Virus record (IMG/VR): IMGVR_UViG_3300025872_000267
Location: 1-26,141 of that record
Length of the DNA stretch: 26,141 bases
Source of the DNA: a virus
Direction: 5' to 3' (one strand)
A program made the translations under genes and the position numbers. The notes beneath the pieces are model-generated. The model ran no database searches. It was not told the DNA's origin and saw only the letters and a list, made by a program, of their open reading frames with translations. This document shows positions 4,613 to 21,683 of the stretch, piece after piece (the first letter of the stretch is position 1; each line of letters opens with the position of its first letter).

Positions 4613-6097
4613 TTAGAACGTGCCGCCGTCGATAGTAATCCCATCAAACGTGGTCAGATTTGTAATGCTACCACCAGTAATTGCGACACTGTTAGCATTC
4701 TGCGTGGACATTGTTCCCAAACCGGAAATGTCGGTATTGGGAATGGTCGCGCTAGCAGTAAATGCTGACGTTCCGTTGCCCTTGACATAGCCTGTCAATG
4801 TCGTGGCGCCTGTACCACCATTACCAACTGCCAAAGTGCCGCTGATATGGGTGGTCAGGCCAATCTTGCCGTAGCTTGGGGCAACGCCAACACCGCCGGA
4901 AATAAGCGCATTGCCGGTAGCGACATCAGCCAGTTTGGACAAGGCTGAAGTTGTTGAGGCGTACAGAATATCGCCAACAGCATAGCTAGTTTGCCCGGTG
5001 CCGCCCTTGTTTGCAGCGATTGCTGTGGCACTCCAAGTACCCGTGGCAACCGTGCCCAATGTGGTAATTGTATTTTGACCAACGTAGGCAGAAGAAATGT
5101 CAATGCCCGAGGCAGAAACACTGATTCGATTGGTTGTGCCAACAGCAGCAAACGTAGTGCCGGTCAGAGAAAGACCATCACCTGCCGTATAGGTTCCAGC
5201 ACCAGAGAATTGCGACCAAGTGACTGCCGTGGTCCCAAGAGTGCCACCAGCATTAACTGTACAAACCCAACCGGTATCTTGAAGTGTCGTGCCCTGTTCA
5301 ATGAACGTAAAGGCACTGATCAATTCATTCCAAGTATCGGCATCGGTTGTTCTGGTCCATGCTGTTGTGCTTGCAGCATAGATGCCGTTTTCTGCTGGAG
5401 CCGATTGGTTTTTAACCAAGACTCGCTGACCAGCAGTAACTGTCACACCATCAATGGTTTGCAAGCCTGACAGCGTGATGTTTGCTGTAGTGCCACACAC
5501 CACAGAAGCCTTGACATCAAGACCTTGTGCAACCGAGTCCACATAGTTCTTGGTGGCCGCATCTTGGGCATTTGACGGATCAGCAAGATTGGTAAGTTTG
5601 AAATTGCCAAAGCTGAAATCCGCTGTAGGCGCAGAGATTTCTGTCAGCGTTGCAGTCGCGCCAGCAGTGGCAAGACCCTTGGCATTAACAGTAATTTTTG
5701 TGTATGAGCCTGCACTGACGCCGCTATTGGCAAGCGTTGCAGTGGCCGATACGTTTGCCGAACCATCAACAGAAGACAGCGTTGCAGTGACATCACCGGT
5801 CAACGACAGGCTTCGTGCAGTGGTCCAAGTAGCCGCGCTGCCGCTAACGGAGCCAGCAATCGTATTGTTGAAGGTCTTGGTGCCGTCAATCGTCTGATTG
5901 GTAGACGTATCGACAAATGCACCATTACCAGCAATGGCGATAATGGACGTTGCCGAGCCTCCCGCGCCACCAGTTCCCGTACCGTAGTACAGGACATTGG
6001 TTTGTTCGTTAAAGGCCAGTTCAGCATTTTGGAGGGAAGTCGGCGCACCGGCACCACCACCATTTGCTCTGCGTTTGATTCGGATGGTATTTGACAT
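4613..6097 (-). CDS. Tail fibre protein with phage tail repeats
   Basis: This 494-residue protein begins MSNTIRIKRRANGGGAGAPT and shares the N-terminal plan of the downstream 690-aa fibre: basic start, Pro-Thr, L..AELAFNE....LYYG. The central part has FGNFKLTNLADPSNAQDAAT leading to KNYVDSVAQGLDVKASV, then a domain near residues 200-285 with SGLQTIDGVTVTAGQRVLVK, NGIYAAS and AWTRTTDADTW. That set is widespread in phage tail fibres. The C-terminal part has GGTGQTSY, GNGGTGATTLTGYVKGNGT and other tail-repeat motifs, and ends with a Gly/Thr/Ile strand-rich tail. AGAGGGA lies 6 bases before the ATG. It is probably a trimeric beta-structured side or tip fibre. Its shorter length than the downstream paralogue suggests division of labour, which is inference. 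Confidence 0.88.
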   Translation of the reverse strand: MSNTIRIKRRANGGGAGAPTSLQNAELAFNEQTNVLYYGTGTGGAGGSATSIIAIAGNGAFVDTSTNQTIDGTKTFNNTIAGSVSGSAATWTTARSLSLTGDVTATLSSVDGSANVSATATLANSGVSAGSYTKITVNAKGLATAGATATLTEISAPTADFSFGNFKLTNLADPSNAQDAATKNYVDSVAQGLDVKASVVCGTTANITLSGLQTIDGVTVTAGQRVLVKNQSAPAENGIYAASTTAWTRTTDADTWNELISAFTFIEQGTTLQDTGWVCTVNAGGTLGTTAVTWSQFSGAGTYTAGDGLSLTGTTFAAVGTTNRISVSASGIDISSAYVGQNTITTLGTVATGTWSATAIAANKGGTGQTSYAVGDILYASTTSALSKLADVATGNALISGGVGVAPSYGKIGLTTHISGTLAVGNGGTGATTLTGYVKGNGTSAFTASATIPNTDISGLGTMSTQNANSVAITGGSITNLTTFDGITIDGGTF

Positions 6098-6937: not shown

Positions 6938-6965
6938 ATCATACCACTTTAGGTGCCATTTTCAA
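6938..6965 (-). promoter_or_regulatory. Candidate sigma70 promoter for the fibre block
   Basis: On the minus strand TTGAAA (6965-6960) and TATGAT (6943-6938) are separated by 16 bases. Each matches 5 of 6 consensus positions. The elements overlap the last codons and stop of the J-type gene, and transcription would begin near 6931 and enter the gene starting at 6866. It sits at one of the few sizeable gene gaps (82 bp), at the border between conserved tail genes and the fibre block, which makes it more plausible. Found by eye and not tested. Confidence 0.45.
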
Positions 6966-9900
6966 CACTTAAAATCATGGTTCCAGACCCAACAATTGGG
7001 CTTCCGCTTGACGATGTGCTGATGTCATAAGAAAGTTGGCATTCATCCACACCAGTGGAAGACAGCGCCAAAGTCCATGCTTGATTTGAACTTAACGCCA
7101 ACCATGAGTCAAGCGTACCTGTGCTGGGCGTTGTGCCACTGATTTTAGAAACTTTCACCCAATACGAATTGCCAATATTGGTCGTTGTTGGGCTGTACCA
7201 ACTTTTGTATGTTGCATAAGCCCCAGCGTTTGCTTTGGAATAAACCGTACCGTCAGTTCTAAACTGTAGTCCAGCTGTGGCCGTTCCACTTGCTGCATAT
7301 GCATATTTAACCAATGTTTGGTTTTGAAGTACGCCAGCAATCGTCAAATTAGCTTGGTTAATAGTGACATATAAACTTGATCCATCCCAGAGCAATTTAT
7401 TACCAGAGGCATCTCCAATGCTTAATTTATAAGCACCACCGGAATAACCTAGGAAAAACCCTACACCTGTGTCGTATGCTGTTTGACCACCTTTAATAAA
7501 ACCAGATGAGTCAATAGTAATGGTGCCTGCTGTGATGGTTCCAAGATTTGCCGAAATTGCCGACAAACTACCAACTTTCAACGCAGAAATATAGGGTAAT
7601 CCCCAAACAGTGTTTCCAGTTGATGGGCTGTAAATACCATCAATTTGGAAAATTGACTCACCGGCCACATAGGTGGGAACTGTTCCTTGCCATACTTCGC
7701 TGCCACCCCAAGTGTTATTTGGTGGGAAAGAAGTCGATCCAGATGTGGTGTACGTTGTTGGAGTGTTGTTTAGGGTCGATCCAGTAACTTTGGCGTAAGC
7801 AATTCTGGCAGAAGCTCCATCCGTACCGTTTGTGCCATTTGTGCCATTTGTTCCGTTAGTCCCATTAGTCCCGTTAGTGCCAGCCGCACCATAAGCCAGA
7901 ACAGAAGCAGTGGTCCAGTTAATTGTGCTGGTGGTACTGGTCGCGCTAGATGTCAGATTTACGGTTGCCCCCCAGAGCGTATATCCCGCCGATGGCGATG
8001 TACCGGGAGTCAGTGACCAACCAGATGGGGCAGCACCAAACGAATTGGTTGCCCATGTATATGTTGCAGTACCACTTGGTCCTGTTGGAATGGTTGCCGC
8101 CCATTGATAAACAACCACATTGACTGATTGCGTACCATTAGCACCATCAGTGCCATTAGTGCCATTAGTGCCGTTTGAACCAGCATATCCAACCACATAA
8201 GCGGTGCTGGTTCCCCACGTTACTGTGGATGTTGCCGTTGTAAGCTGATCAGAATAATTTTGATTGCAAGCGTACAGCGTCTGACCGGGCGATCCAGCTG
8301 ACGGGGTTTGCGTCCAACCATTCAGCGTACCGGGATTTGTATAGGTAGCCGTTGCCCATGTATATGTTGAGGTGCCGGACGGGAAAGTTGTCGGGGTTGA
8401 TGTGGCCCACTGATAGATTTCCAGCATCGCAGTGCGATAGCCGTTTGATCCATCTGTGCCGTTTGTACCGTTGGTTCCGTTGGTTCCGTTCGTGCCGTTC
8501 GTACCCGCAGCGCCCAATGCGTATGTGACAGCAGTTGTCCATGTCACTACAGAAGTCGCACTTGTTCCGGTGTCGCTATATGACTGAGTGCAGCCCCAAA
8601 GCGTTTGCCCAGCAACAGCAGAACCCGGCAATTGCGACCATCCATTAAGCGTTGGCGATGTAAATGAATTCGTCGCCCACGTATAAGTGGATGTCCCACT
8701 TGGGAAAGTAGTCGGAGCATTGACGGCCCATTGGTAAACCTCTAATTGAGCTGTTCTAGTGCCATTAGCTCCATCAGTTCCGTTTGTTCCGTTAGTGCCG
8801 TTTGTTCCATTCGACCCGGCATATCCAACAACATATGTGGCCGAGGTGCTCCACGTAACGATTGATGTGGCCGTCGTGTTGGTGTCTGCATAGGTAACAG
8901 AGCAGGCATACAACGCATATCCGGGCGTGGATGTTCCGGGCGTTACTGTCCAGCCATTAGGTGTTCCGGGTGCAGTGAATGTGCCGTTAGCCCAAGTGTA
9001 GGTTGATGTACCAGAAGGGAACGATGTTGGCGCAGTCGCCGCCCATTGGTAAACCTCAAGAAACGCTGTTCGGGTTCCATTTGATCCGGGTGGTCCAACA
9101 GTTCCCGTTGGTGCCCATGTCAATCCTGCGCTTGTAGCTGACAGCGTTGAAGTTGCTTGTTCATTGGCGACTTGGAACGCAAAATAATATGTTGCAGCAG
9201 GCAGGCTGATGTCGGCAAATTTAACTGTACTGCCTTGAGCAAATACTTGCGAATTGGATGCGGTTTGAATGCTCCAAACTTTCCAATCAGTTGAAGACGG
9301 GGACGCAACAGTCGTGTAAAACAAAGTAACTGTTGTGACCCGTCCAGTAGAAGGCATCACACAATTGAATGCAAACGTCGGGATCGTTGCTGACGGAGCT
9401 TGATCCGTTACCGTTGGCGCAACCAGCGCCGGGAAGTAATATGGGCTGGGCAATGAAGAATTCGGTGCCGGTGAGAATTGAGTGATGCTTGCATCGTCAT
9501 AAACAGCAGCGTTGTATTCAGAGCATTCAATTCGAGCACCAAGATTTCCATCAGGCGTAGAAGCCTCTTGTACCTTCATCACCCGGAACAGCTTGGAAGT
9601 CCAGCCATAAACCGAGTTGGTAATGCTAATAACGTCGCCTGCGTTTACTTGAATGCCGGGATAGGCAGTAGTAAACGAAACAATCAAGTCTTCCCGAGCT
9701 TGTTCAAGAATACGATTTGCTAAATATGTTGCTTGAACTGAATCGTTTACTAGGTCAAAAGTTGTGCTGTATTTATTGACCGGTTCATTTGGATACAGCA
9801 ATGATGGATTCAAAACAGCAATATCAAGAAACACATATTCCGGTTGATCTTTGTTTGATTTGAACGGAAAAGACGCCTCAACTTGATTAATTGATGACGA

Positions 9901-10962
9901 AAGGTCAGTGACACTGACACGAATCTCACCAATGATGTTTGAGTCATCAAATGAAAACGAGCTGGATTCTGCCTTGTTAATAATGGGCGACCATTGCCCT
10001 GTTGCGGCTTGATAGGCAAGCCAGCAATCGCAGGCTGTAAGAATCTTATCTACGTTATTGAGAACGGTCTCTCCGGTATTGATGACTCCATTTATGCGGT
10101 ATCGAGCTTGAGTGGCCGATCCACCACCAGAAGGCGTATACGGAATTGTTGCGTCAGAATAAGTATTTAATGCGGCACATTGCGTGGAGTTGACATTTGC
10201 GGCTGGAACTGCGCCGCCATAAACAGTGTTGGTCAAATAGTCATACAAAACATCACCGGGCTTGGCGGCTCCAGTGCTGTTCAAATAATGAGAGCATTTG
10301 AAAGTCAATGCCTGCAAATTTGTAGTGCCTGCGTCACGGTTATAGATCAGCTTGACAATGGCAAAAGCCAATCCATTCATTTGCCGACCAGTAGACGGCC
10401 ACCGCAGACTTGCATCAATGTCTGAGCCGCCCATCACGCTTGATGGGGCAGCTGCACCATTTGTGGATGTAATTACACCGGCAACCGTAGATGTATACAG
10501 ATTGATGTAGAGATTGCCGCTAATGGATGTATCTTCATTTCCTGCGCCATCTGTTAATTTGGTGACTTTTGTTCTGTCAGTGTTGTCAAAAGTTACGAGT
10601 CGATCACCGTAATAAAAAACACTTTGATCGTAAGAAAACTGTCCGTTAGCTGAGATGTTGCTAATCGCCAGCACGTAATACATCGTCTTTTGATCGGTAG
10701 ACAGCACCGCATCGACAAACGTGCCACCCAGCCACGCATCGCCATAAACAACTGGCAAACTGTTAGTGGAATTGGGCGGGATTTGCTGTCTTACGCCGGG
10801 ATCAGTTTGGTTTGGAGGCTGGCTTCCAAAGATGCGAGTCACCACATATGACAACGCAAAATTGACTGCCAATTGAACAACTGCACTGGCCGTGTAAGCG
10901 GCAGCAGCAGCTTGAAAAGTTGCACTGATAAATGTCGCCAGTGACATTTCCAAAATTGGCAT
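6949..10962 (-). CDS. J-type tail tip / host specificity protein with four repeats and collagen-like linkers
   Basis: This 1337-residue protein starts two bases after the upstream stop, with GAGGT about 6 bases before its ATG. Residues 15-47 are hydrophobic and Ala-rich, as in many tail-tip proteins that contact the tape measure or membrane. Residues about 60-520 carry the central-tail hub part: LPVVYGDAWLGG, GLAFAIVKLIYN, the ILTACDCWLAYQAATGQW module and the NAGDVISITN region are typical of J-like proteins. A fibronectin-like segment (about 530-615) follows. Four repeats starting near residues 631, 736, 843 and 945 each open with a VYQW/IYQW motif and end in GTNGTNG-type collagen-like runs. 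The C-terminal part (about 1045-1337) includes LSAISANLGTITAGTITI, familiar from the ends of lambda J-like proteins. It would form the tail tip that recognises the host. Confidence 0.9.
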   Translation of the reverse strand: MPILEMSLATFISATFQAAAAAYTASAVVQLAVNFALSYVVTRIFGSQPPNQTDPGVRQQIPPNSTNSLPVVYGDAWLGGTFVDAVLSTDQKTMYYVLAISNISANGQFSYDQSVFYYGDRLVTFDNTDRTKVTKLTDGAGNEDTSISGNLYINLYTSTVAGVITSTNGAAAPSSVMGGSDIDASLRWPSTGRQMNGLAFAIVKLIYNRDAGTTNLQALTFKCSHYLNSTGAAKPGDVLYDYLTNTVYGGAVPAANVNSTQCAALNTYSDATIPYTPSGGGSATQARYRINGVINTGETVLNNVDKILTACDCWLAYQAATGQWSPIINKAESSSFSFDDSNIIGEIRVSVTDLSSSINQVEASFPFKSNKDQPEYVFLDIAVLNPSLLYPNEPVNKYSTTFDLVNDSVQATYLANRILEQAREDLIVSFTTAYPGIQVNAGDVISITNSVYGWTSKLFRVMKVQEASTPDGNLGARIECSEYNAAVYDDASITQFSPAPNSSLPSPYYFPALVAPTVTDQAPSATIPTFAFNCVMPSTGRVTTVTLFYTTVASPSSTDWKVWSIQTASNSQVFAQGSTVKFADISLPAATYYFAFQVANEQATSTLSATSAGLTWAPTGTVGPPGSNGTRTAFLEVYQWAATAPTSFPSGTSTYTWANGTFTAPGTPNGWTVTPGTSTPGYALYACSVTYADTNTTATSIVTWSTSATYVVGYAGSNGTNGTNGTNGTDGANGTRTAQLEVYQWAVNAPTTFPSGTSTYTWATNSFTSPTLNGWSQLPGSAVAGQTLWGCTQSYSDTGTSATSVVTWTTAVTYALGAAGTNGTNGTNGTNGTNGTDGSNGYRTAMLEIYQWATSTPTTFPSGTSTYTWATATYTNPGTLNGWTQTPSAGSPGQTLYACNQNYSDQLTTATSTVTWGTSTAYVVGYAGSNGTNGTNGTDGANGTQSVNVVVYQWAATIPTGPSGTATYTWATNSFGAAPSGWSLTPGTSPSAGYTLWGATVNLTSSATSTTSTINWTTASVLAYGAAGTNGTNGTNGTNGTNGTNGTDGASARIAYAKVTGSTLNNTPTTYTTSGSTSFPPNNTWGGSEVWQGTVPTYVAGESIFQIDGIYSPSTGNTVWGLPYISALKVGSLSAISANLGTITAGTITIDSSGFIKGGQTAYDTGVGFFLGYSGGAYKLSIGDASGNKLLWDGSSLYVTINQANLTIAGVLQNQTLVKYAYAASGTATAGLQFRTDGTVYSKANAGAYATYKSWYSPTTTNIGNSYWVKVSKISGTTPSTGTLDSWLALSSNQAWTLALSSTGVDECQLSYDISTSSSGSPIVGSGTMILSVENGT
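7805..9072 (-). repeat. Four ~105-codon tandem repeats with Gly-Thr-Asn linkers inside the tail-tip gene
   Basis: Repeats begin at 9072, 8757, 8436 and 8130 on the minus strand, giving spacings of 105, 107 and 102 codons. The shared core is (L/V)(E/V)(V/I)YQWA, an (S)GT(S/A)TYTWA motif about 15 residues later, GW..TPG, then a TLWG or ALYAC segment and VTW. Each unit ends in a Gly-x-x run made mostly of GTN, with GSN, GTD and GAN. The units before repeats 2-4 and after repeat 4 vary in the number of GTN triplets. The first unit is preceded by only a short GPPGSNG. The nucleotide sequences differ between copies, so this is not a recent exact duplication. Confidence 0.9.
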
Positions 10963-10964
10963 AT

Positions 10965-11402
10965 TTACCTCACAAAAGTCGTTTCAATTGGCCTGAAGCC
11001 TTTTGATTCAAAGTTCATTCTTGGACTTGATTCCATCAGCGTCATGGACATGAAATCAGCTCTTCCAACATCAATCAATTCTTGTGCGTACTTTTGAAAT
11101 CCAAGAAACAGTTTCCCACCCGTCAAGCCACCTCGATGTTCAGGCCGCACCCACCACGCAAGCTCTTTTACCTGCCTAATTTCTGGAATCCATAAATTCG
11201 GGACAATAGCCGCAACAATGATTCCTTTGCCTTCTTCAATCAATACGAATCCGCGCCCAGCAATGATGGACATCAACAATTCTTCAATGTACTGTTGATT
11301 GTGTTTTGTCTTATCTTTGAACGCATCAATTGGACCTTCCAAGGCATAGCTTTGCATCATCTCAAAGCATTCGGCAAGATCAAATTTGTTTGCTTTTCTC
11401 AT
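10965..11402 (-). CDS. GNAT-like N-acetyltransferase-family protein in the tail module
   Basis: This 145-residue protein reads like a compact GNAT fold: an N-terminal MRKANKFDLAECFEMMQSYA helix, a central strand GFVLIEEGKGIIVAAIVP, then ELAWWVRPEHRGG followed by LTGGKLFLGFQKYAQELID. That places a basic/Gly-rich loop where acetyl-CoA binding motif A (R/Q-x-x-G-x-G/A) lies, although the spacing is not canonical. A C-terminal segment with FESKGFRPIETTFVR matches the usual beta-6/7 ending. GNAT-like genes beside tail-tip genes are known in other phages, but their substrate is usually undetermined. It overlaps the upstream gene by ATGA and lies 2 bp before the J-type gene. It could modify a virion or host protein, or be a non-catalytic structural adaptor. 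Confidence 0.7.
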   Translation of the reverse strand: MRKANKFDLAECFEMMQSYALEGPIDAFKDKTKHNQQYIEELLMSIIAGRGFVLIEEGKGIIVAAIVPNLWIPEIRQVKELAWWVRPEHRGGLTGGKLFLGFQKYAQELIDVGRADFMSMTLMESSPRMNFESKGFRPIETTFVR

Positions 11403-12061
11403 GGGTTTACATCAAGACTGCCGCCATCTTTCCATTCGCCACCATTGGTTCCGTTGGATACAGACCCCCCAGAAGGTGGAGAACCAAAGTCAAAGAATTG
11501 ATTGGATATGACACTCACTCGATTCATTGATACATCACCGGAATACACAGACTGCCAGCTTTTTTGATTGGTTTTCATCCCGGCAATTCGCTGCTCAAGA
11601 ACTTTGCGCATCGAGCAACAAGACACCGTACAGGTAGCAGTTCTTGTACGTGCTTGGTCATTCCAATCTTCTGTGATTGATACGTTGTTAATGATGCCGG
11701 TGTAACGCTTAAAGAACTGGGTCGTTGGCGTAGTAATGATCTGGTTGTCAGCGTCCAAAAAACCGCGCCACACTTCTACGGAACTTCCTTTGATGTCTGC
11801 ACTTAAAAGCAAAGACACATTGGCCGGATCAATTCCCACCAAAGCAATCAAAAGATCATCAGAAGATGCTTTGATGTCTTGCTGTACATCTCCCAACGAC
11901 AAGAACGATCCCATGCCGTTAAAGGTAATACCGCTAACCGTTATGTTGCCAGCAGCATTGCAAAACGTATAAGTTGTTGGAGATGTCCTGCCAACAATCA
12001 TCCTGATAAATTCAGCTTGTCGGATGTTCGCGCTAGACAGCGCATTCATTGTTGTGCTCAT
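11399..12061 (-). CDS. Minor tail / baseplate-hub protein
   Basis: I take ATG 12061 as the start (MSTTMNALSSANIRQAEFIR, 220 aa). It forms an ATGA overlap with the upstream stop, while the longer reading to 12100 would lie inside the previous gene. The mid part, ADIKGSSVEVWRGFLDADNQ followed by FKRYTGIINNVSITEDW, and the later KSWQSVYSGDVSMNRVSVIS segment resemble minor tail proteins found between the tape measure and tip protein in lambda-like siphoviruses. The lambda L-type position (between tape measure and J) supports a hub role. Several Cys residues occur around 155-165 (TCTVSCCS), as in metal-binding hub proteins, though a cluster is not certain. Gene order is tape measure, 216-aa protein, this protein, GNAT-like protein, J-type tip. 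Confidence 0.75.
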   Translation of the reverse strand: MSTTMNALSSANIRQAEFIRMIVGRTSPTTYTFCNAAGNITVSGITFNGMGSFLSLGDVQQDIKASSDDLLIALVGIDPANVSLLLSADIKGSSVEVWRGFLDADNQIITTPTTQFFKRYTGIINNVSITEDWNDQARTRTATCTVSCCSMRKVLEQRIAGMKTNQKSWQSVYSGDVSMNRVSVISNQFFDFGSPPSGGSVSNGTNGGEWKDGGSLDVNP

Positions 12062-12708
12062 GGCGCGACATTCTCCCGAAACACAAACGGACCATCCCAA
12101 GCGACAAATGCGCCGCTAGTCATGGGCGTCAGCGTATACGTTGGGCATTGCTCTGCATACACAGGAAAGTACACCGCAGACCCAACCGCAGTCAATGTGC
12201 CTGTTGAGGGAGTTCCAATTACAGGTCGATGGATGCCTACGCTGATTGTTGATCCCGAGCCTCTCAGAACTTGCGCCGTGACTTTGTAGACATAGTTGCC
12301 AAGCTGCAAGAAGTCGCCAGCAGCAAAAACCACCGTTGTGGATGCCACCGCAGGAAGATTACCAATAGTCAAAGTTTGCGAATTGGTTGGCGGCACAGAT
12401 GCCAATGTCAGCGCAGCAGCCTGTACGCTTGTCAAACCGCCTTTGTACTCAGTGAACCACGACAATGTTGATCCGCTAAATGTGATGTTCTGAGCGTACT
12501 CACGATCTGAGTTGTCAATGGATTGGATTACATCTCGCACTTGCGGGTAATACAAGAAGTTGTGAGGCGTAATCGTAAAGACCCAAGGCACCGCATTTAG
12601 ATAGCCTGCCGTGCGAACTTGTCCACCACGACTTACCTGTTCACCAACAACCCGGCGATTGTTTACCGTCATTGATTGCTGGATGTTGACGATTGTTTGG
12701 AATGACAT
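12058..12708 (-). CDS. Minor tail protein downstream of the tape measure (distal-tail position)
   Basis: This 216-residue protein begins MSFQTIVNIQQSMTVNNRRV directly after the tape-measure stop and ends in an ATGA overlap with the next gene. The N-terminal part, with GEQVSRGGQVRTAGY and VPWVFTITPHNFLYY, is beta-rich. The middle has an inserted beta domain (TLTIGNLPAVASTTVVFAAG) and the end reads YTLTPMTSGAFVAWDGPFVF. The gene sits where distal tail proteins or lambda M-type minor tail proteins lie, so it probably forms the ring joining the tail tube to the tip. I do not recognise a family beyond this positional reasoning. Confidence 0.72.
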   Translation of the reverse strand: MSFQTIVNIQQSMTVNNRRVVGEQVSRGGQVRTAGYLNAVPWVFTITPHNFLYYPQVRDVIQSIDNSDREYAQNITFSGSTLSWFTEYKGGLTSVQAAALTLASVPPTNSQTLTIGNLPAVASTTVVFAAGDFLQLGNYVYKVTAQVLRGSGSTISVGIHRPVIGTPSTGTLTAVGSAVYFPVYAEQCPTYTLTPMTSGAFVAWDGPFVFRENVAP

Positions 12709-15147
12709 TTAGGCCCTCCCGCGGCCAACGGCCAGACTCTTTTGAGCGTAAGCATTTGCAGCCCAGACAGCATTTGGAGAAGACATCAGACGCTGTTCAA
12801 ACGATTTGGTATCAATGGCGTTGATGTAGTTATTTGTAATATTTGTCACGCCACCCATCGAGGCCAGTTGATTGTTTGGAATGATCGTGCCTGCTGTGCG
12901 TGGAATGAACAATTCAGGACCTCGTTCGCCAACTAGCGACAATCTATTGGCCGCAACACTTCCACCATTAGCGTGTGGTTCTGCCCAATTTGTCGGAGCA
13001 GTTCCGGGCGCATAGACATTACCGCTAGAACCAAATAAAGCAGATCCAAGAAACTTGAAAATTGCAAGAGCTTGCGATTTCATTTGTATCAAAAGCATAT
13101 CTTGAATAATGCTTCGAGCAAGATCTTTGAATGACAATTTACCAGTGCGAACAAAGTTTTCAAGTGCTTGAGACAAATTGTTCCAAACACTATCTGATAT
13201 TTCTTTAATTCTTGTCAATGAATCCGCAGTTGCTGCCAAACCTTTTTCCATTTCTCTTTGTCCAATAAGTCTTTGAATTGCATTTTCCTTGTCAAGATCA
13301 CTTATTGATGCTTTTTTAATCTCTTCAATTTTTTCAAGATATTTCAAATCAATCATTGCAGCATTAGTTTGCTGCTCTGTATAAAACAAACTTTCTTTTT
13401 GAAATTGCACTTTCTTGCGTTCTTTTTCTAATGAAATATCTGTTGCATTTGCTTCATTTATAACCGCTTTTAACTGAGCGTCAACAAATGCATTAAGCGC
13501 ACCTTCATCTTCATCAAGTTGCTTTCTCCATTCTTCCTGTGCAGTACGTAAATCTGCTTCACGCTTGCGATTTAAATCTCGCACTTTTACATCTAAATCA
13601 CGAAGAATTTTTAATTGATCTTCTTCGTATTTTTCTGCATTTTGTTTTGCAAAAACACCAGCTTCTTGAGCATTCTTTTTATCAAGTTCTAATTTAAGAA
13701 TTGCAAGTTTTTCATCAGCATCAAGTTTTAATTTGCCAATTTCATCGACATTACGTTTTTCAAATTCATATTTATTTTGTACTTCTAATTTTGAATATTC
13801 CAATGCAAGATCAAGACGTTTTTGTCCATTTTTTGCTTCGTCATTAATTCTGTCAGTTTCATTTTTCTTTAGCAGAATAGCTCTATTGCGAAGAAGAATT
13901 TGTTCATTTAAGACATCTGCTTTTTGTTGTTGTTCAGCTATTTTTGCATCAAAAAATGCTGCATTTGCACTTGGTCGTGCCTTTGCTTTTTGATAATCTT
14001 CAATTTGCTTTTGTACAGAACGCAACTTATCTTCAAGAGTAGTTTCTCGTCCAATACCAAGCATGGCATCCCATGCAGCAGAGGCAGATTCTTTAAGAGC
14101 ATTCCAAGATTTTTCAAGAATTCCTAATTCTCTTGTTTGTCCTTGAACTGAAGTATTAAAAGCATCCGCAGCAATTTTGGCAGATTCTTGAAGTTTGCCT
14201 TGCTTTTCCAAAGTTTCAATCTGTTTATATTGGGCAAGAGTCAAGAAATGATATTGATCATTAAGTCGCTTGGCGGAAGCCGCGGTGCCATCAAAAGCCG
14301 GAATCAGAGCTTTGGCAACTTCTTTTGATGTTTGACCCGTCAACTTTGATACATTCAAAATTGCTTGGGCAACAGAATCCATTGATTGACTAGTGAATTG
14401 ACCAGAAGACACCAGTTGAAATAACACTTCTTTTGTATCGCCAATTGATACATTGACATTTTTACTAATTACATTTGCCATGCGCTGAAAACTATCAGCA
14501 GTAATTTTGGCGTAATTATTTGTAAGAATTAAATCGTCTCTAAGTTTTGCAGATTCCATCGATCCTTTGTAAAACGCAATCGCCAATGTTCCAACTGTTG
14601 TGACCAATGCAGTCAATGCAACATTTACAGGCGTAATGAATCCACCAAGGATTCGGAACATATTGGTGAAGCCGCCCATCTGATCTTTTAATTGACCACC
14701 TTGCTGGAGCAAAGCAATCATTGCGTTTTGACCAGATGCGATCTGAGTAACAAGGTCGGTTGTTTGATATGTAAGGGCCAGACGCTGCTGCTCTGTCAAA
14801 CCACCAGTTGCGGCAACCTTGCTTTTTGCGGCTATGTCATCATAAGCCTTGGCTTGCTCACGAAGCCTTGCAATAACCGCTTGTCCTCCTTCACTTGAAG
14901 CAAGATTTTTATATCTGCCACTTTGTAATTCACGTTCAAGTTGAGTTACTCGGGTTATTGTTTTACCGTAATCTTCAGTAGCATATTTAAGAGTTTGAAT
15001 CTCTTTTTCTGCCGAGCGCATTTCACGCGCAATTGAATTTTTAAGTTTATTGGCTTCAAGAGCAACATTTGTTGCACCAGAAGTAAAACCTGCCGAATTT
15101 AATGCGGCTTGAACTTCAAGTTTTGCAATGGTTTGTGACTTAGCCAT
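12709..15147 (-). CDS. Tail tape measure protein
   Basis: This 812-residue protein is the largest helical protein in the window. Residues 1-60 are a charged N-terminal helix. The QQRLALTYQTTDLVTQIASG and GQLKDQMGGF segments (about 120-160) are typical of TMP_2-type tape measures. A hydrophobic stretch at about 166-194 could enter a membrane. A long Lys/Glu/Gln-rich coiled coil covers roughly residues 375-630. The C-terminus has IQDMLLIQMKSQALAIF and LSLVGERGPELFIPR followed by GTIIPNNQL, a familiar lambda-family tape-measure ending. At about 1.5 angstrom per residue, the family rule predicts a tail near 120 nm. It overlaps the gp10-like gene by 8 bp. The central coding region is AT-rich, as expected from Lys/Glu/Ile codons. 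Confidence 0.93.
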   Translation of the reverse strand: MAKSQTIAKLEVQAALNSAGFTSGATNVALEANKLKNSIAREMRSAEKEIQTLKYATEDYGKTITRVTQLERELQSGRYKNLASSEGGQAVIARLREQAKAYDDIAAKSKVAATGGLTEQQRLALTYQTTDLVTQIASGQNAMIALLQQGGQLKDQMGGFTNMFRILGGFITPVNVALTALVTTVGTLAIAFYKGSMESAKLRDDLILTNNYAKITADSFQRMANVISKNVNVSIGDTKEVLFQLVSSGQFTSQSMDSVAQAILNVSKLTGQTSKEVAKALIPAFDGTAASAKRLNDQYHFLTLAQYKQIETLEKQGKLQESAKIAADAFNTSVQGQTRELGILEKSWNALKESASAAWDAMLGIGRETTLEDKLRSVQKQIEDYQKAKARPSANAAFFDAKIAEQQQKADVLNEQILLRNRAILLKKNETDRINDEAKNGQKRLDLALEYSKLEVQNKYEFEKRNVDEIGKLKLDADEKLAILKLELDKKNAQEAGVFAKQNAEKYEEDQLKILRDLDVKVRDLNRKREADLRTAQEEWRKQLDEDEGALNAFVDAQLKAVINEANATDISLEKERKKVQFQKESLFYTEQQTNAAMIDLKYLEKIEEIKKASISDLDKENAIQRLIGQREMEKGLAATADSLTRIKEISDSVWNNLSQALENFVRTGKLSFKDLARSIIQDMLLIQMKSQALAIFKFLGSALFGSSGNVYAPGTAPTNWAEPHANGGSVAANRLSLVGERGPELFIPRTAGTIIPNNQLASMGGVTNITNNYINAIDTKSFEQRLMSSPNAVWAANAYAQKSLAVGRGRA

Positions 15148-15634
15148 TTTTCTTCTTTCTGTTCATTTTGTTTGTGTAAGCAAACACCAATTCCGTTAAT
15201 TCATCTCGAAGAATATCAATAACTTTAATTGCGTTATAAGCCAAAGCTGGCCGCAGAAATGGTTTTGCATCACGTCTAGAGGTGCCAAATTCATTAGCCA
15301 ATGACACGGCGCTTTTCTTGACAGAAACGGAGCCAACAGCGATATCGGCAGGCTTAAAGTAAACTGACTCTTGATCAGAACTGTTTGGCAACCTTGCATT
15401 GAGCCGAATCGTGTCCTTCATGTGGATCGGACGATAAGCGTCTCGCGGCTTTTCGTTGTCCACTGGGGCCATCATCAAGGCCGTCTCGTATACGGGCACC
15501 ATGGCTCGTTTAAGGGCCTTTACGGCGGTCTGCTGGACCATTGTGTCCACAGGAAATTCTTTTGCCAGCGCAAGCATTAATTGCTCAAGCTCATCAAAGC
15601 CTTCTTCGCTCCATGTGAAATCATGCTCAAACAT
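15140..15634 (-). CDS. HK97 gp10-like tail/neck protein
   Basis: This 164-residue protein matches the HK97 gp10-like pattern: an N-terminal helical part with ALKRAMVPVYETALMMAPVD, a short basic DAYRPIHMKDTIRLNAR segment, a core of VYFKPADIAVGSVSVKK, then LANEFGTSRRDAKPFLRPAL and a final helix. The EFGTS and PFLRPA motifs are the most telling. In HK97-like phages this gene usually lies before the tail tube genes. Here it follows the G/GT chaperones and precedes the tape measure. It overlaps the frameshifted reading of the chaperone by 8 bp and the tape measure by 8 bp, suggesting coupled translation. Confidence 0.85.
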   Translation of the reverse strand: MFEHDFTWSEEGFDELEQLMLALAKEFPVDTMVQQTAVKALKRAMVPVYETALMMAPVDNEKPRDAYRPIHMKDTIRLNARLPNSSDQESVYFKPADIAVGSVSVKKSAVSLANEFGTSRRDAKPFLRPALAYNAIKVIDILRDELTELVFAYTNKMNRKKKNG

Positions 15635-16420
15635 AGCTTGCCAACGCTTTCTGCGCTCCCGGCGCTTGGGACATGAACGCCAAAAGTTTCTCGCTGGCCT
15701 GCTGGGCCTGCTCTTCAGGCGTCAGTGGCGGGACAATGTAATCGTGCGTCGAAGGCAGCACATCTGCCATCTTGAACGGTGAAGCACCTTGTTTGAGCTT
15801 TGCGTTGAGATTACCTGTTGTCAGCGACGATAGGGCCACAAGGACTGCCTTGTTGCCTATGAACCCATCACTGAGCAGGATTTCAATATCACGCATTGCA
15901 TCGGCTGGGATTGTGTCAGGACATCCACCATGAGCGTAAATGTACGCCCGAGCTTGCCGATGAATGTCCCGAATTAGTTTTTTCGAGAGTCCTTATAACC
16001 GGGCTGAATCGCTTCAGAAATCTTTTCCAACATCTCAAGCTGAACGGCAAACGGCCATTCAGCCTCAATGTCTTCATAAGTCAATCCATCCAAACTGCCG
16101 TTTTCTGGCACCAGCAATTTAATGAACTCGACAATCCGATTTTCCATTTTCATGGCAGATTGCACAAGTTCTTTTGTAGAGCGGCCATCGACGATCACAT
16201 CGTCTTTTTTGATTTCCACTCCATCTTTGGATTCTTTGAAGCCAGCCACCGCTTTTTCGTAGCGGGTTTTGAATGCGGCTTGATCAATGACATCGCATCG
16301 AGCGGTCATTTCTTCGAGCTCTTTAGTCAAGGGGACGCGAACCTTAAACGTCATCCCGCCAAGCTCAAAGGTTTTGGTGCGGAGTTGTAGCGTATCTCCA
16401 AACGCGCCGGATAGTTTCAT
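15627..16420 (-). CDS. GT fusion tail assembly chaperone made by -1 frameshift
   Basis: If ribosomes slip by -1 at AAAAAAC (15983-15977), the 148 residues of the upstream frame are followed by 116 residues in the -1 frame. This frame stays open through 27 codons before its first ATG (15896) and ends at TGA 15627-15629, giving about 264 residues. The extension begins LIRDIHRQARAYIYAHGGCP and includes the MRDIEILLSDGFIGNKAVLV and PPLTPEEQAQQASEKLL segments. A short G protein plus a longer GT fusion immediately before the tape measure is the conserved arrangement in lambda-like tails, where the two coat the tape measure during tube assembly. A stand-alone 89-aa protein from 15896 is possible but less likely, as no good ribosome binding site is seen there. 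The frameshift is inferred, not measured. Confidence 0.85.
15917..15994 (-). promoter_or_regulatory. Programmed -1 ribosomal frameshift signal
   Basis: On the minus strand an SD-like AAGGA (15994-15990) precedes CG-A-AAA-AAC. The heptamer A AAA AAC occupies 15983-15977 in the zero frame, with TAA immediately after. Five bases later an 8-bp stem can form between CGGGACAT (15971-15964) and ATGTCCTG (15924-15917), with one G-U pair. Inside it lies a 7-bp hairpin, GGGCGTA (15949-15943), loop CATT, TACGCTC (15938-15932), also with one G-U pair. Slippery site, spacer of 5, structured RNA and upstream SD-like element are all hallmarks of bacterial -1 frameshifting. Confidence 0.88.
15974..16420 (-). 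CDS. G-type tail assembly chaperone (unshifted product)
   Basis: The 148-residue unshifted product starts with an ATGA overlap with the 76-aa gene and ends at TAA (15974-15976), directly after the slippery heptamer. An N-terminal beta-like part (TKTFELGGMTFKVRVPLTKE) precedes helical segments with RYEKAVAGFKESKDGVE and ENRIVEFIKLLVPENG, then a conserved-looking FAVQLEMLEKISEAIQPGY end. This size and position (after the tail tube genes, before the tape measure) fit lambda gpG. It should be made in large excess over the frameshifted form, as in lambda, but the ratio is not visible in sequence. Confidence 0.85.
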   Translation of the reverse strand: MKLSGAFGDTLQLRTKTFELGGMTFKVRVPLTKELEEMTARCDVIDQAAFKTRYEKAVAGFKESKDGVEIKKDDVIVDGRSTKELVQSAMKMENRIVEFIKLLVPENGSLDGLTYEDIEAEWPFAVQLEMLEKISEAIQPGYKDSRKN

Positions 16421-16647: not shown

Positions 16648-16815
16648 TTAATGATACTTGGCTAGAACATTAAGAACCACTGCCTCTGCTGTGTCGGCTT
16701 CCACCTCGGAAAGAGCTTCTTGAAGCTCCTCCGAGTCCACCACTTGAGCTTTAGCCGCTGCATCCAGATCGCCCCGAAGTTCGACCAGTTCATCCACGAT
16801 TTCTTGCAGCGTCAT
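16648..16815 (-). CDS. 55-aa acidic helical protein
   Basis: This short gene starts at ATG 16815 in an ATGA overlap with the second major tail protein and ends at TAA 16648-16650, immediately before the ATG of the next gene. The product, MTLQEIVDELVELRGDLDAA and onward, is 55 residues of acidic helix rich in Glu, Asp, Ala, Leu and Val, with heptad-like Leu/Val spacing. There is no membrane segment. Its exact fit between two coupled genes, leaving no unexplained bases, is strong support for it being real. Function unknown; a small coiled-coil adaptor or chaperone partner is only a guess. Confidence 0.75.
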   Translation of the reverse strand: MTLQEIVDELVELRGDLDAAAKAQVVDSEELQEALSEVEADTAEAVVLNVLAKYH

Positions 16816-17330
16816 GTGTTGCTCCAGCCGTATTGACCACCGCGGGGGTGGATGGTGAATGTGGCTTTTGCTTCGGCACCCGGCTGTGCATCGATCTGGA
16901 ATTGACCGACACGGGCATTGAAGGCATAAGCGATTGTGGTGGAGCCATCAACCGCAGCAATCACAAACGTGCGCTCAGTGACGCCAGAATAGGCATCAGA
17001 ACGGATTTGCAACAGTGCCGTATCAGACGGATTCCACGCAGCCGAAATCGTCAGTGACGTAGGAGCCGACTGTGATGGGATTTTGTCCGATTGACGTGAA
17101 CCTGCAACGGAGAACGATGCGACTGCGTCATCTTGTCCAAACGCAGGGATCGCCTCGACAACAAGCTGAGTACCAGCAGTGCCCGTGCCATTAGCTGCGG
17201 TTCCAACAATAGTGGCGACTTGAGCAGTCCAGACCGACAAATTGGCCGTACTAAGTGTCGTGGGAGTGGCCGCAGACTGCATCCAAAGCGATGCACTAAA
17301 GCCGGGAAGAATTTTGTTAGGTGCTGCCAT
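16812..17330 (-). CDS. Second major tail (tube) protein, paralogue B
   Basis: This 172-residue protein is a close paralogue of the gene immediately upstream. Residues 58-104 (VEAIPAFGQDDAVASFSVAG and onward) match the other copy at 45 of 47 positions, and a C-terminal block (YAFNARVGQFQIDAQPGAEA to HPRG) at 29 of 30. The N-terminal third and residues about 105-132 differ, and this copy has an extra Gly/Thr/Ala insertion near 43-54. The DNA of the matching blocks has many third-base changes, so the pair is old and under selection. It has a strong GAGGTGA ribosome binding site 8 bp after the first copy and is coupled to the 55-aa gene. Likely a tail-tube subunit or variant. Confidence 0.85.
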   Translation of the reverse strand: MAAPNKILPGFSASLWMQSAATPTTLSTANLSVWTAQVATIVGTAANGTGTAGTQLVVEAIPAFGQDDAVASFSVAGSRQSDKIPSQSAPTSLTISAAWNPSDTALLQIRSDAYSGVTERTFVIAAVDGSTTIAYAFNARVGQFQIDAQPGAEAKATFTIHPRGGQYGWSNT

Positions 17331-17338
17331 GATTCACC

Positions 17339-17833
17339 TCAAGCGTTGTTAGACCAACCGTACATATTTCCACGCGGATGCAGCGTGAATGTCGCTTTAG
17401 CTTCAGCACCGGGCTGTGCGTCAATTTGGAACTGACCCACGCGGGCGTTGAAAGCGTAGTAAACGATGTTCGAACCATCGGTCGCGGACACCACATAAGT
17501 GCGCTCAGTGATGCCGGAATAGGCGTCTGTGCGGACCTGTTGGATCACGGTATCCGAAGGGTTCCAAGCCGCCGAAATGGTCAGCGAAGTCGGTGCTGCT
17601 TGAGAAGGGATTTTGTCCGACTGACGCGAACCGGCCACCGAGAACGAGGCCACAGCATCGTCTTGACCAAAGGCGGGAACCGCTTCGACCAACAACTGAT
17701 TGCCAGAAACCGCGATGGCAGCAACAGAAGCCAGAGTGGACAACTGCGCCAGCGTCAGGGCCGTAGGAGAGGCTCCCGACTGAGCATAAATCGCAGCACT
17801 AAAACCCGGAAGAATTTTGCTTGGGAGAGCCAT
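17339..17833 (-). CDS. Major tail (tube) protein, paralogue A
   Basis: This 164-residue protein starts MALPSKILPGFSAAIYAQSG with an AAGGGA ribosome binding site, after a 33-bp gap from the tail terminator gene. The compact beta-rich sequence, with SQAAPTSLTISAAWNPSDT and a C-terminal RVGQFQIDAQPGAEAKATFT strand set, and the position right after the terminator gene, identify it as the tail-tube subunit. Tube proteins form stacked hexameric rings around the tape measure. No extra immunoglobulin-like C-terminal domain is present. It and the following gene form a conserved paralogue pair. Which copy is more abundant cannot be told from sequence. Confidence 0.88.
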   Translation of the reverse strand: MALPSKILPGFSAAIYAQSGASPTALTLAQLSTLASVAAIAVSGNQLLVEAVPAFGQDDAVASFSVAGSRQSDKIPSQAAPTSLTISAAWNPSDTVIQQVRTDAYSGITERTYVVSATDGSNIVYYAFNARVGQFQIDAQPGAEAKATFTLHPRGNMYGWSNNA

Positions 17834-19290: not shown

Positions 19291-20304
19291 TCAGACCTTC
19301 ATCCGCACACCGGCAAACGGGTCGCGCACCGAGCTGACCACACGTTTTTCAGCATAGAGGTTCACAAAACCGGGCATTGTTTGTTCCATCATCTGGACAG
19401 AAAATTCATTCATGTCACCGATGGTCAAAAAGCGCGGCCAATTCGCCAAATAAATCGGATATGTGCTTGACAAATATGGGTTCGGGATTACAGGCCACCC
19501 AAAGACTCGGCCAACCGCAGCACCGTCTTCGTCGCCTGTTTCCAAAAAGATTGGCAGACCTTGGTTATCAGTCAGATTACGCAAGGTAGTGATCATGGTG
19601 GGATTCATGTGCCACGCTGTTCCGGGAAGCGCCCAATATTGACCCGGCAATTTATTGGCCGTATTGACAATGTCGTTGTATGCAACAGAAACGCCGGAAT
19701 CAAGCGTTGCAATCGTGTGGATGCCATTTGTCATGGCCGTGCCGCTTGAACCAAATGCAGACGCAGCGCCATCAACGTACATATCCAGCCCACGCAAGCC
19801 AGAAGTCGCGCCTGTGGTCGTTGTGGTGCTTCCGGCTTGATCATCATTGATCGCCATGCTTGCGCCTTCGAGTTGCGCAAATTCCAGCATCAAGTCTTCG
19901 ACCAATTCGGTAGGAAGATTATTGACATCGCCCAACACAGCCGAGCGAATCGGCAGTTGAGCGGTAATTGCTCGAACCGGCAGTTGCCAGATCGAAGTGT
20001 TTGTTCCGGGAGAACCGGTGTCGTTTGCAACTGGATAGCCCCAAGGATTTCCAGCTTGATTAGTTGCGTTACCTGTCTTGGCAACGAACTGCATATCAGA
20101 GCCCATCACAGGCACTTGACGCGATCCCATACGAAACGGGTTCGCATAACGCAGAGCAGCAAAAGCATCATCGAAAATAACATTACCACCGACGCCGGAG
20201 CCGGAACCAGTAAGCAACGAGGCTTCAGTCAAATCAATCTTGATTTGTCGCTGCTCGTGAATGGATTGTTTGATTCCGTCAAGGATTTTTTCGGTGATGC
20301 TCAT
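19291..20304 (-). CDS. Second HK97-fold major capsid paralogue lacking the scaffold (delta) region
   Basis: This 337-residue protein is clearly homologous to the capsid gene upstream. Shared features in order are ASLLTGSGSGVGG (residues 28-40), FAALRYANPFR, the WGYPVANDTG and TSIWQL motifs, LPIRSAV, GLRGLDMY, NGIHTIATLD, PGQYWAL, FGWPVIPNPYLS and a C-terminal SVRDPFAGVRMKV. Only 27 residues precede the junction motif, against about 99 in the other copy, so the coiled-coil scaffold is missing. AGGA about 9 bases before the ATG is a good ribosome binding site. It probably needs the longer protein, or another scaffold, for assembly. Roles as vertex protein or mixed-shell subunit are possible. 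The family is clear but the role is inferred. Confidence 0.88.
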   Translation of the reverse strand: MSITEKILDGIKQSIHEQRQIKIDLTEASLLTGSGSGVGGNVIFDDAFAALRYANPFRMGSRQVPVMGSDMQFVAKTGNATNQAGNPWGYPVANDTGSPGTNTSIWQLPVRAITAQLPIRSAVLGDVNNLPTELVEDLMLEFAQLEGASMAINDDQAGSTTTTTGATSGLRGLDMYVDGAASAFGSSGTAMTNGIHTIATLDSGVSVAYNDIVNTANKLPGQYWALPGTAWHMNPTMITTLRNLTDNQGLPIFLETGDEDGAAVGRVFGWPVIPNPYLSSTYPIYLANWPRFLTIGDMNEFSVQMMEQTMPGFVNLYAEKRVVSSVRDPFAGVRMKV

Positions 20305-20360: not shown

Positions 20361-21683
20361 TCAGGTCGCAGTGCCTGTCGAGCGATAACGCACACCGGCG
20401 TTGGGGTCGCGCACACTGGTTGCCAGACGTTTTTCCCCGAACATCGTTATGTAGCCGGGGGCTGTCTGGTCGTATCTCCGCAGAACCATGTTGAGGCGAT
20501 CAACGATGGTGTGGAAGCGCGACCAATCAGCAAAGTACATCGGATACAAGCTGTTCGTGCCAGCAGAACCAGAGGTCGTTTGGCTAGGCGTGTCGAGATA
20601 CTTGTTCATCACGACATCGAAGCCCAACATCTGACCGATGATGCCATCGGGGTTCAGCGACTCGACAGAGTTGAAGATCGGGCGACCGTTGGTGTCTTGC
20701 AGGCCACGAATGGCTTGAGCAAGAATCGGGTTCACCATGAACTTCGCGTCCTTGGTCCAGTACTGCTGAGGCAGTGCGTAGATCAGGTTGATCACATCCT
20801 TGTACTGGATGTTGTTCGCGCCAACGGTGTTAGCGTTGGTGGTCAACTGGTCATACGTTGCCAACGAGTGCAGGCCAGAAGAGCTGCCGGTGCCAGACGA
20901 ACCGAATGCAGCAACCGACGAAGTGCCACCTGCATAGGTAGCATTTGCGCCAGCGTACTGATCCAGACCGCGCAGACCGTTAGAACCACCGTAGGGCAAG
21001 CTAGTAGCACCTTGGTCGTTGTTCTGCACCATGCTGAGGGCCTCACTCTGGGCGAAGCTGGCGAGCATATCATCAACGATCACAGCCTCCAACCCGTCGA
21101 TGTCATCCAGAGCCGCAGTACGGATCGGGAATTGCACGTTGAGGTCTTGCAGCACCAATTGCCAAATGCTTGTGTCTTCAGTCGTGGCCGCTGTGTTGTT
21201 CACAATCGGGTAGCCCCAGCCTTCACCGGGGTTGCCCACGCGCACGCGAAACTGATAGCTTGAGCCATCAGTAGCAACAGTACGCGACAGACCGCGCATC
21301 GGGTTCAGCAGACGCAGGGCCGTGAAGGTGGGGTCATAAGCGGTGCGACCGCCCTTGCCATCACCACCACCGGTCAACTGCGATGCTTCCTTCATGTAGG
21401 CATCGTATTGGCCTTCATCGTCAAACATCTTCAGTTCTTTTTCAAACTGAGGCTTGCCACCGATGTACTCTTTGACTTGCTCTTTGACCTTGCGGTTCAC
21501 GTCTTGACGAACGCTTTTGGCGATCGGTTTGACGATAGCGGGAGCTTGCACAGAAGCAACTTTGGCTTCCAGAGCAGCAACCTTCTCAGAAAATTCGGCC
21601 TTGACCGCTTCAACGGACTCGGCAACTTTTGCGAGTGTGGACTCTTGAATAGCGTCCAGCTTTTCCATAATAACTTGAGACAT
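20361..21683 (-). CDS. HK97-fold major capsid protein with N-terminal scaffold (delta) domain
   Basis: This 440-residue protein has a long N-terminal charged coiled-coil region (residues 1 to about 100, SQVIMEKLDAIQESTLAKVA onward), the usual delta domain that acts as scaffold and is removed by the prohead protease. The shell part begins near ASQLTGGGDGKGG (100-112) and continues with FTALRLLNPMRG, GWGYPIVNN, TSIWQLVLQDL, FPIRTAALDD, GLRGLDQY, QQYWTKDAKFMVNPI, GQMLGFDVVMNKYL and SVRDPNAGVRYR. The portion after the junction is about 337 residues, a normal mature size. It lies two bases after the protease gene, with AAAGG as ribosome binding site. It is probably the main shell subunit. Confidence 0.92.
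   Translation of the reverse strand: MSQVIMEKLDAIQESTLAKVAESVEAVKAEFSEKVAALEAKVASVQAPAIVKPIAKSVRQDVNRKVKEQVKEYIGGKPQFEKELKMFDDEGQYDAYMKEASQLTGGGDGKGGRTAYDPTFTALRLLNPMRGLSRTVATDGSSYQFRVRVGNPGEGWGYPIVNNTAATTEDTSIWQLVLQDLNVQFPIRTAALDDIDGLEAVIVDDMLASFAQSEALSMVQNNDQGATSLPYGGSNGLRGLDQYAGANATYAGGTSSVAAFGSSGTGSSSGLHSLATYDQLTTNANTVGANNIQYKDVINLIYALPQQYWTKDAKFMVNPILAQAIRGLQDTNGRPIFNSVESLNPDGIIGQMLGFDVVMNKYLDTPSQTTSGSAGTNSLYPMYFADWSRFHTIVDRLNMVLRRYDQTAPGYITMFGEKRLATSVRDPNAGVRYRSTGTAT

Follow-up and report, generated by a model that had tools for sequence, protein, structure and literature searches.

A conserved A_AAA_AAC site suggests programmed -1 frameshifting in an unannotated family of predicted phage tail assembly chaperones

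Frameshifting between the G and T reading frames is described in a review as widely conserved in long-tailed dsDNA phages (PMC5009743). For Acinetobacter phage Loki, an AAAAAAC motif adjoining the gp12 stop codon has been published, with an identical motif given for IME_AB3 (PMC5313236). The article presenting PRFect takes X_XXY_YYZ for the sole slippery motif that the literature has identified; it also states that most frameshift overlaps lack it (PMC10274946). Here we analyse a whole virus record of 26,141 bases (hereafter the window), which contains packaging, head and tail genes. Two overlapping reading frames on its minus strand, referred to below as G and T, very probably give rise, from a single start site and through programmed -1 ribosomal frameshifting, to two tail assembly chaperones. 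This reading rests on sequence elements, their conservation, coding in the -1 frame, constraint on RNA structure and synteny, from which we infer both the shift and the chaperone function.

Like lambda G/GT, the locus sits between the genes for the major tail protein and the tape measure, and has two overlapping frames with a -1 shift, here a predicted one, near the end of G (PMC5009743). It differs from lambda in the tail-completion-like gene that lies here between T and the tape measure gene. The slip sites are also different, since lambda uses G_GGA_AAG whereas the site described here is A_AAA_AAC with a flush stop codon. Like this locus, the gp12/gp13 sequence of Loki has A_AAA_AAC flush before TAA and a -1 frame of 116 aa; a stem follows the site, and a tail completion gene precedes the tape measure gene. 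In Loki, however, the predicted stem starts 8 nt past the heptamer and is organised differently. As A_AAA_AAC followed by TAA is published in Loki, the type of frameshift is already known; what is new is its occurrence in an unannotated family of predicted tail assembly chaperones. When the alignments of G and T were compared by hhalign with lambda G/T and Loki gp12/gp13, no detectable similarity was obtained, and among the titles listed in searches of non-subscription literature, none on a frameshift of this G-T family or of its nearest named phage, P19250A, was found.

Table 1 Positions of the G-T locus elements and of the neighbouring tail genes in the window
Feature	Positions	Strand	Basis
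Zero-frame ORF "G", 148 aa, predicted tail assembly chaperone (short product)	15974..16420	-	ORF list, synteny, weak fold match to 2OB9
Slippery heptamer A_AAA_AAC, in phase with G	15977..15983	-	Sequence and relatives
Zero-frame stop TAA, flush with the 3' end of the heptamer	15974..15976	-	Sequence and relatives
-1-frame "T" coding region, 116 codons and stop	15627..15977	-	Sequence; relatives match from residue 1
First -1-frame ATG (T residue 28), choice of a simple gene caller	15894..15896	-	ORF list
SD-like AAGGA, 6 nt 5' of the heptamer	15990..15994	-	Sequence; same spacing in 28/41 representatives
Outer stem, 5' arm	15958..15972	-	RNA fold; 8-bp core conserved
Outer stem, 3' arm	15916..15930	-	RNA fold and consensus
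Inner stem, 5' arm (GGGCGTA)	15943..15949	-	RNA fold and consensus
Inner stem, 3' arm (TACGCTC)	15932..15938	-	RNA fold and consensus
Major tail (tube) protein, paralog 1	17339..17833	-	PHROG 158 major tail protein, 8.9e-5
Major tail (tube) protein, paralog 2	16812..17330	-	PHROG 158 major tail protein, 6.1e-7
Tail completion/neck-like protein between T and tape measure	15140..15634	-	PHROG 5, 1.6e-7
Tape measure protein	12709..15147	-	Pfam TMP_2, 1.1e-49, and Tape_meas_lam_C

G starts with an ATG at 16420 and ends in ...CGA AAA AAC TAA; from 16000, the minus strand reads 5' to 3' ggttataaggactctcgAAAAAACtaattcggga... An earlier reading of this DNA, made from its letters alone (the sequence-only reading), had proposed that ribosomes shift at an A_AAA_AAC heptamer lying in phase with the zero frame and followed at once by TAA. 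Both elements indeed occur, on the minus strand, and the frameshift interpretation is well supported. The motif by itself is not rare: the window has four copies of AAAAAAC, below an expectation of 11.25. An in-phase X_XXY_YYZ within the last five codons is found in 2 of the 102 ORFs of at least 60 aa in the window, and the other case, an AAACCCA at the 3' end of ORF 11399-12100, was rejected as an ordinary ATGA gene overlap. The weight of the site rests on its phase, its place and its conservation, and not on the occurrence of the motif. No Rfam match was obtained at the slip site, and no tRNA gene was found in the window.

Relatives were collected with two queries. A search of virus contigs with T gave 150 confirmed relatives, the best 80 of which were kept; their T is 60-88% identical and matches from residue 1, and all 80 loci have an in-phase X_XXY_YYZ at the same spot followed by an open -1 frame (76 AAAAAAC and 5 GGGAAAC when the window is counted). 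Because the T query contains the extension upstream of the ATG, and is therefore biased towards loci having it, a G-only alignment, which is devoid of the T side of the site, was used as a control. The best 80 of at least 556 confirmed relatives found in this way likewise all carry AAAAAAC and an open -1 frame, which in two of them (L093 and L127) is readable over only 12 and 72 codons, the stretch apparently ending there. The two sets overlap, and with the best matches kept, distant relatives are unevenly sampled. Together they make up 85 distinct regions, one being too short for the representatives and for the counts of ATG and SD-like sequences (hence 84), and 41 representatives below 93% identity were drawn from the 84 full-length regions. 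The heptamer is AAAAAAC in 82 of the 85 regions and GGGAAAC in the remaining three, with no other form; 78 regions have the zero-frame stop flush with it, and in 7 the stop lies one codon further on. The slippery site and the open -1 frame thus accompany each other in every relative of the window clade examined, and the sequence-only reading, which had named their absence from relatives as grounds for rejecting it, is not refuted by this test. Moreover, AAAAAAC flush before TAA, again with an open -1 frame, was found in both of two MAG contigs retrieved by one genome-collection scan. One of these contigs is labelled as a betaproteobacterium and the other (L164, gene pair around 5900-6001) as Candidatus Nitrosotalea; the assignment of this phage tail gene pair to an archaeon is probably due to mis-binning of the contig.

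After a one-base slip, T would read CTA ATT CGG GAC ..., up to a stop at 15629-15627. As had been claimed, the -1 frame is open for 27 codons before its first ATG, the ORF started there is 89 aa long, and the fusion of G with the whole of T amounts to 264 aa (148+116). A simple gene caller would list proteins of 148 and 89 aa and drop 27 residues; the predicted frameshift would restore a gene that automatic annotation would cut in two. Alternatively, T could be a gene of its own whose translation begins at the ATG at 15896, or through re-initiation past the TAA, the overlap and the heptamer then being incidental. Gene callers would annotate it so, the residue-28 ATG is found in 66 of the 84 distinct regions, and the record of P19250A is annotated with two separate coding sequences, both hypothetical proteins. 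In the 27 codons before this ATG, however, differences among the 41 representatives at the three positions of the -1-frame codons are 0.191, 0.153 and 0.484 (relatedness not corrected), and none of the 41 has a stop in the -1 frame, whereas the other two frames are interrupted in 41/41 and 40/41. This pattern indicates that the extension evolves as a -1-frame protein. Furthermore, residue 28 is CTG, TTC, TTT, TGG, TTG or CTT in the remaining 18 regions, and an SD-like sequence upstream of it is absent in 84/84. These three observations make a separate initiation of T unlikely, and with the heptamer and the RNA structure also being conserved, we consider an independent T gene very improbable.

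Two further elements surround the putative slip site. The AAGGA reported just 5' of the heptamer is present, and across the 41 representatives the upstream element is AAGGA in 28, GGAG in 2, AAGG in 2 and missing in 9. Where this position encodes Lys-Asp/Glu, the lysine codon is AAG in 28 cases and AAA in 8, as compared with 22 AAG and 67 AAA at the other Lys-Asp/Glu sites of G (Fisher p 5.8e-8, relatedness not corrected). This excess of AAG favours a selected SD-like stimulator. In dnaX the SD-like stimulator stands roughly 10 nt from the slip site, so the spacing here is closer.

Downstream, an outer stem of 15 bp, G-U pairs included, and a hairpin of 7 bp nested in it are formed by the 77 nt 3' of the heptamer. 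The energy of this fold is -27.8 kcal/mol, with z = -3.41 against 200 dinucleotide shuffles, 1 of which folds equally well. The sequence-only reading is right on the inner stem of 7 bp and in its other numbers, except that its outer stem of 8 bp is 15 bp long in the single-sequence fold, 8 bp being the length of the core conserved in the representatives. The stem starts 4 nt past the heptamer in the fold of the window and 6 nt past it in the RNAalifold consensus of the 41 representatives, which comprises 8 pairs of the outer stem, another 3, and 4 of the inner stem; several of these pairs alternate between A-U, G-U and G-C. Against 100 synonymous resamplings, the mean z is -2.47 and all 41 representatives are negative (relatedness not corrected); in 33 of them at most 5 of the 100 resamplings are as stable as the native stem, and for the window itself z is -2.1, with 2/100 as stable. 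As native stems outdo resamplings that keep the protein unchanged, the RNA fold appears to be selected beyond the protein.

These features also bear on the two remaining explanations. The frame could be changed by transcriptional slippage on the run of six consecutive A, and not by the ribosome. Six A is short for polymerase slippage, though, and the three GGGAAAC regions have no such run but keep the frame and the position; G_GGA_AAC loses the A-run yet would retain the re-pairing of the tRNAs, and hence its slippability. In addition, a conserved downstream stem and an upstream SD-like sequence act on ribosomes, which leaves to transcriptional slippage a still smaller chance than to an independent T. 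Finally, an assembly or sequencing error splitting one continuous gene, as might be suspected for a homopolymer in a metagenomic virus record, can in practice be dismissed, since 85 distinct regions from many contigs are split alike, with stop codon and RNA structure conserved.

According to programmed ribosomal frameshifting, most ribosomes would translate G and terminate at the TAA. A minority, delayed by the two-part stem and aided by the upstream AAGGA, would slip back by one base, the Lys and Asn tRNAs presumably re-pairing on AAA AAA, and continue through ...RKN-LIRD... to yield the G-T fusion. If the pair acts as in lambda, the tape measure protein would be coated by the G part, and the T part would bring in subunits of the tail tube, allowing the latter to polymerise to a set length. 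As A_AAA_AAC is described in the review as much less shift-prone than A_AAA_AAG in E. coli (PMC5009743), efficiency in the host of this phage may be low.

The identity of the pair was approached through its neighbours and the predicted fold of G. G and T lie downstream of two tube protein paralogs and upstream of the tape measure gene, with small ORFs in between. No Pfam or PHROG family was found for either protein, and a DNA-level search of phage records gave no match. Among solved structures, the one that comes first in both rankings for the predicted structure of G (pLDDT 86) is 2OB9, the tail assembly chaperone of HK97, a weak resemblance (Foldseek E 0.36, rank 1; VIA Z 5.8, rmsd 4.1 over 100 residues, 15% identity), and several annotated tail assembly chaperones are among the weak matches of G in a viral structure library. 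The model of T is of low confidence (pLDDT 72, pTM 0.40). Synteny and this weak best fold match point to a tail assembly chaperone of the lambda G/GT type, which would provide a likely function for an unnamed family present in many metagenomic virus contigs. The two adjacent tube genes, whose products are 71% identical, arose by tandem duplication, and the T domain may accordingly have a partner in each of the two tube proteins.

Among named phages, the nearest is Methylophilaceae phage P19250A, whose portal is 69% identical, and a betaproteobacterial host is therefore plausible for the virus of the window. Its gp13 and gp14 are orthologous to G (44% identical) and T (26%), and T is there also in the -1 frame, but the X_XXY_YYZ heptamer is absent. 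When P19250A T was used as query, the best 80 of 171 relatives had A_AAG (79/80) or A_AAA (1/80) before the stop, X_XXY_YYZ in none (0/80), and the slip site flush with a TAA or TAG in all 80. With P19250A G (best 80 of 102 relatives), the A_AAG/stop site was seen in 39 of 41 distinct segments, P19250A included. The two segments in which it was not shown, L233, which reaches the end of its stretch, and L244, were left out of the stem analysis; L244 (from 2001) has an in-frame stop early in G, which is either a nonsense change or a sequence error. A consensus stem of 10 bp lies 6 nt downstream of the site (14 representatives), with z against synonymous resampling averaging -1.9. A_AAG is given in the review as a known minimal -1 site (PMC5009743).

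Judging from these sequence comparisons, the slip site in this gene appears to differ between the window and P19250A clades. That they have fixed different modes of recoding at one and the same position, namely a tandem slip of two tRNAs on A_AAA_AAC or G_GGA_AAC in the window clade and a slip of a single tRNA on A_AAG or A_AAA at a flush stop in the other, is a proposal to which we give an even chance. While the stop can sit one codon further in the window clade, it is always flush in the best 80 of the 171 P19250A-T relatives, and the waiting stop codon itself may therefore be a stimulator in the latter. If the proposal holds, the pair of clades would represent a natural experiment on the interchange of frameshift mechanisms. 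The family provides in any case an extensive natural alignment for a -1 signal based on A_AAA_AAC, together with a sister clade having a different slip site.

Two other features of the window were observed. Two adjacent capsid proteins (19291-20304 and 20361-21683, minus strand) both match Pfam Phage_capsid and are 37% identical, the longer one having an extra N-terminal stretch. A 1337-aa protein (6949-10962, minus strand) contains collagen-like Gly-x-x repeats, for which arrays of 9/18-base repeats code.
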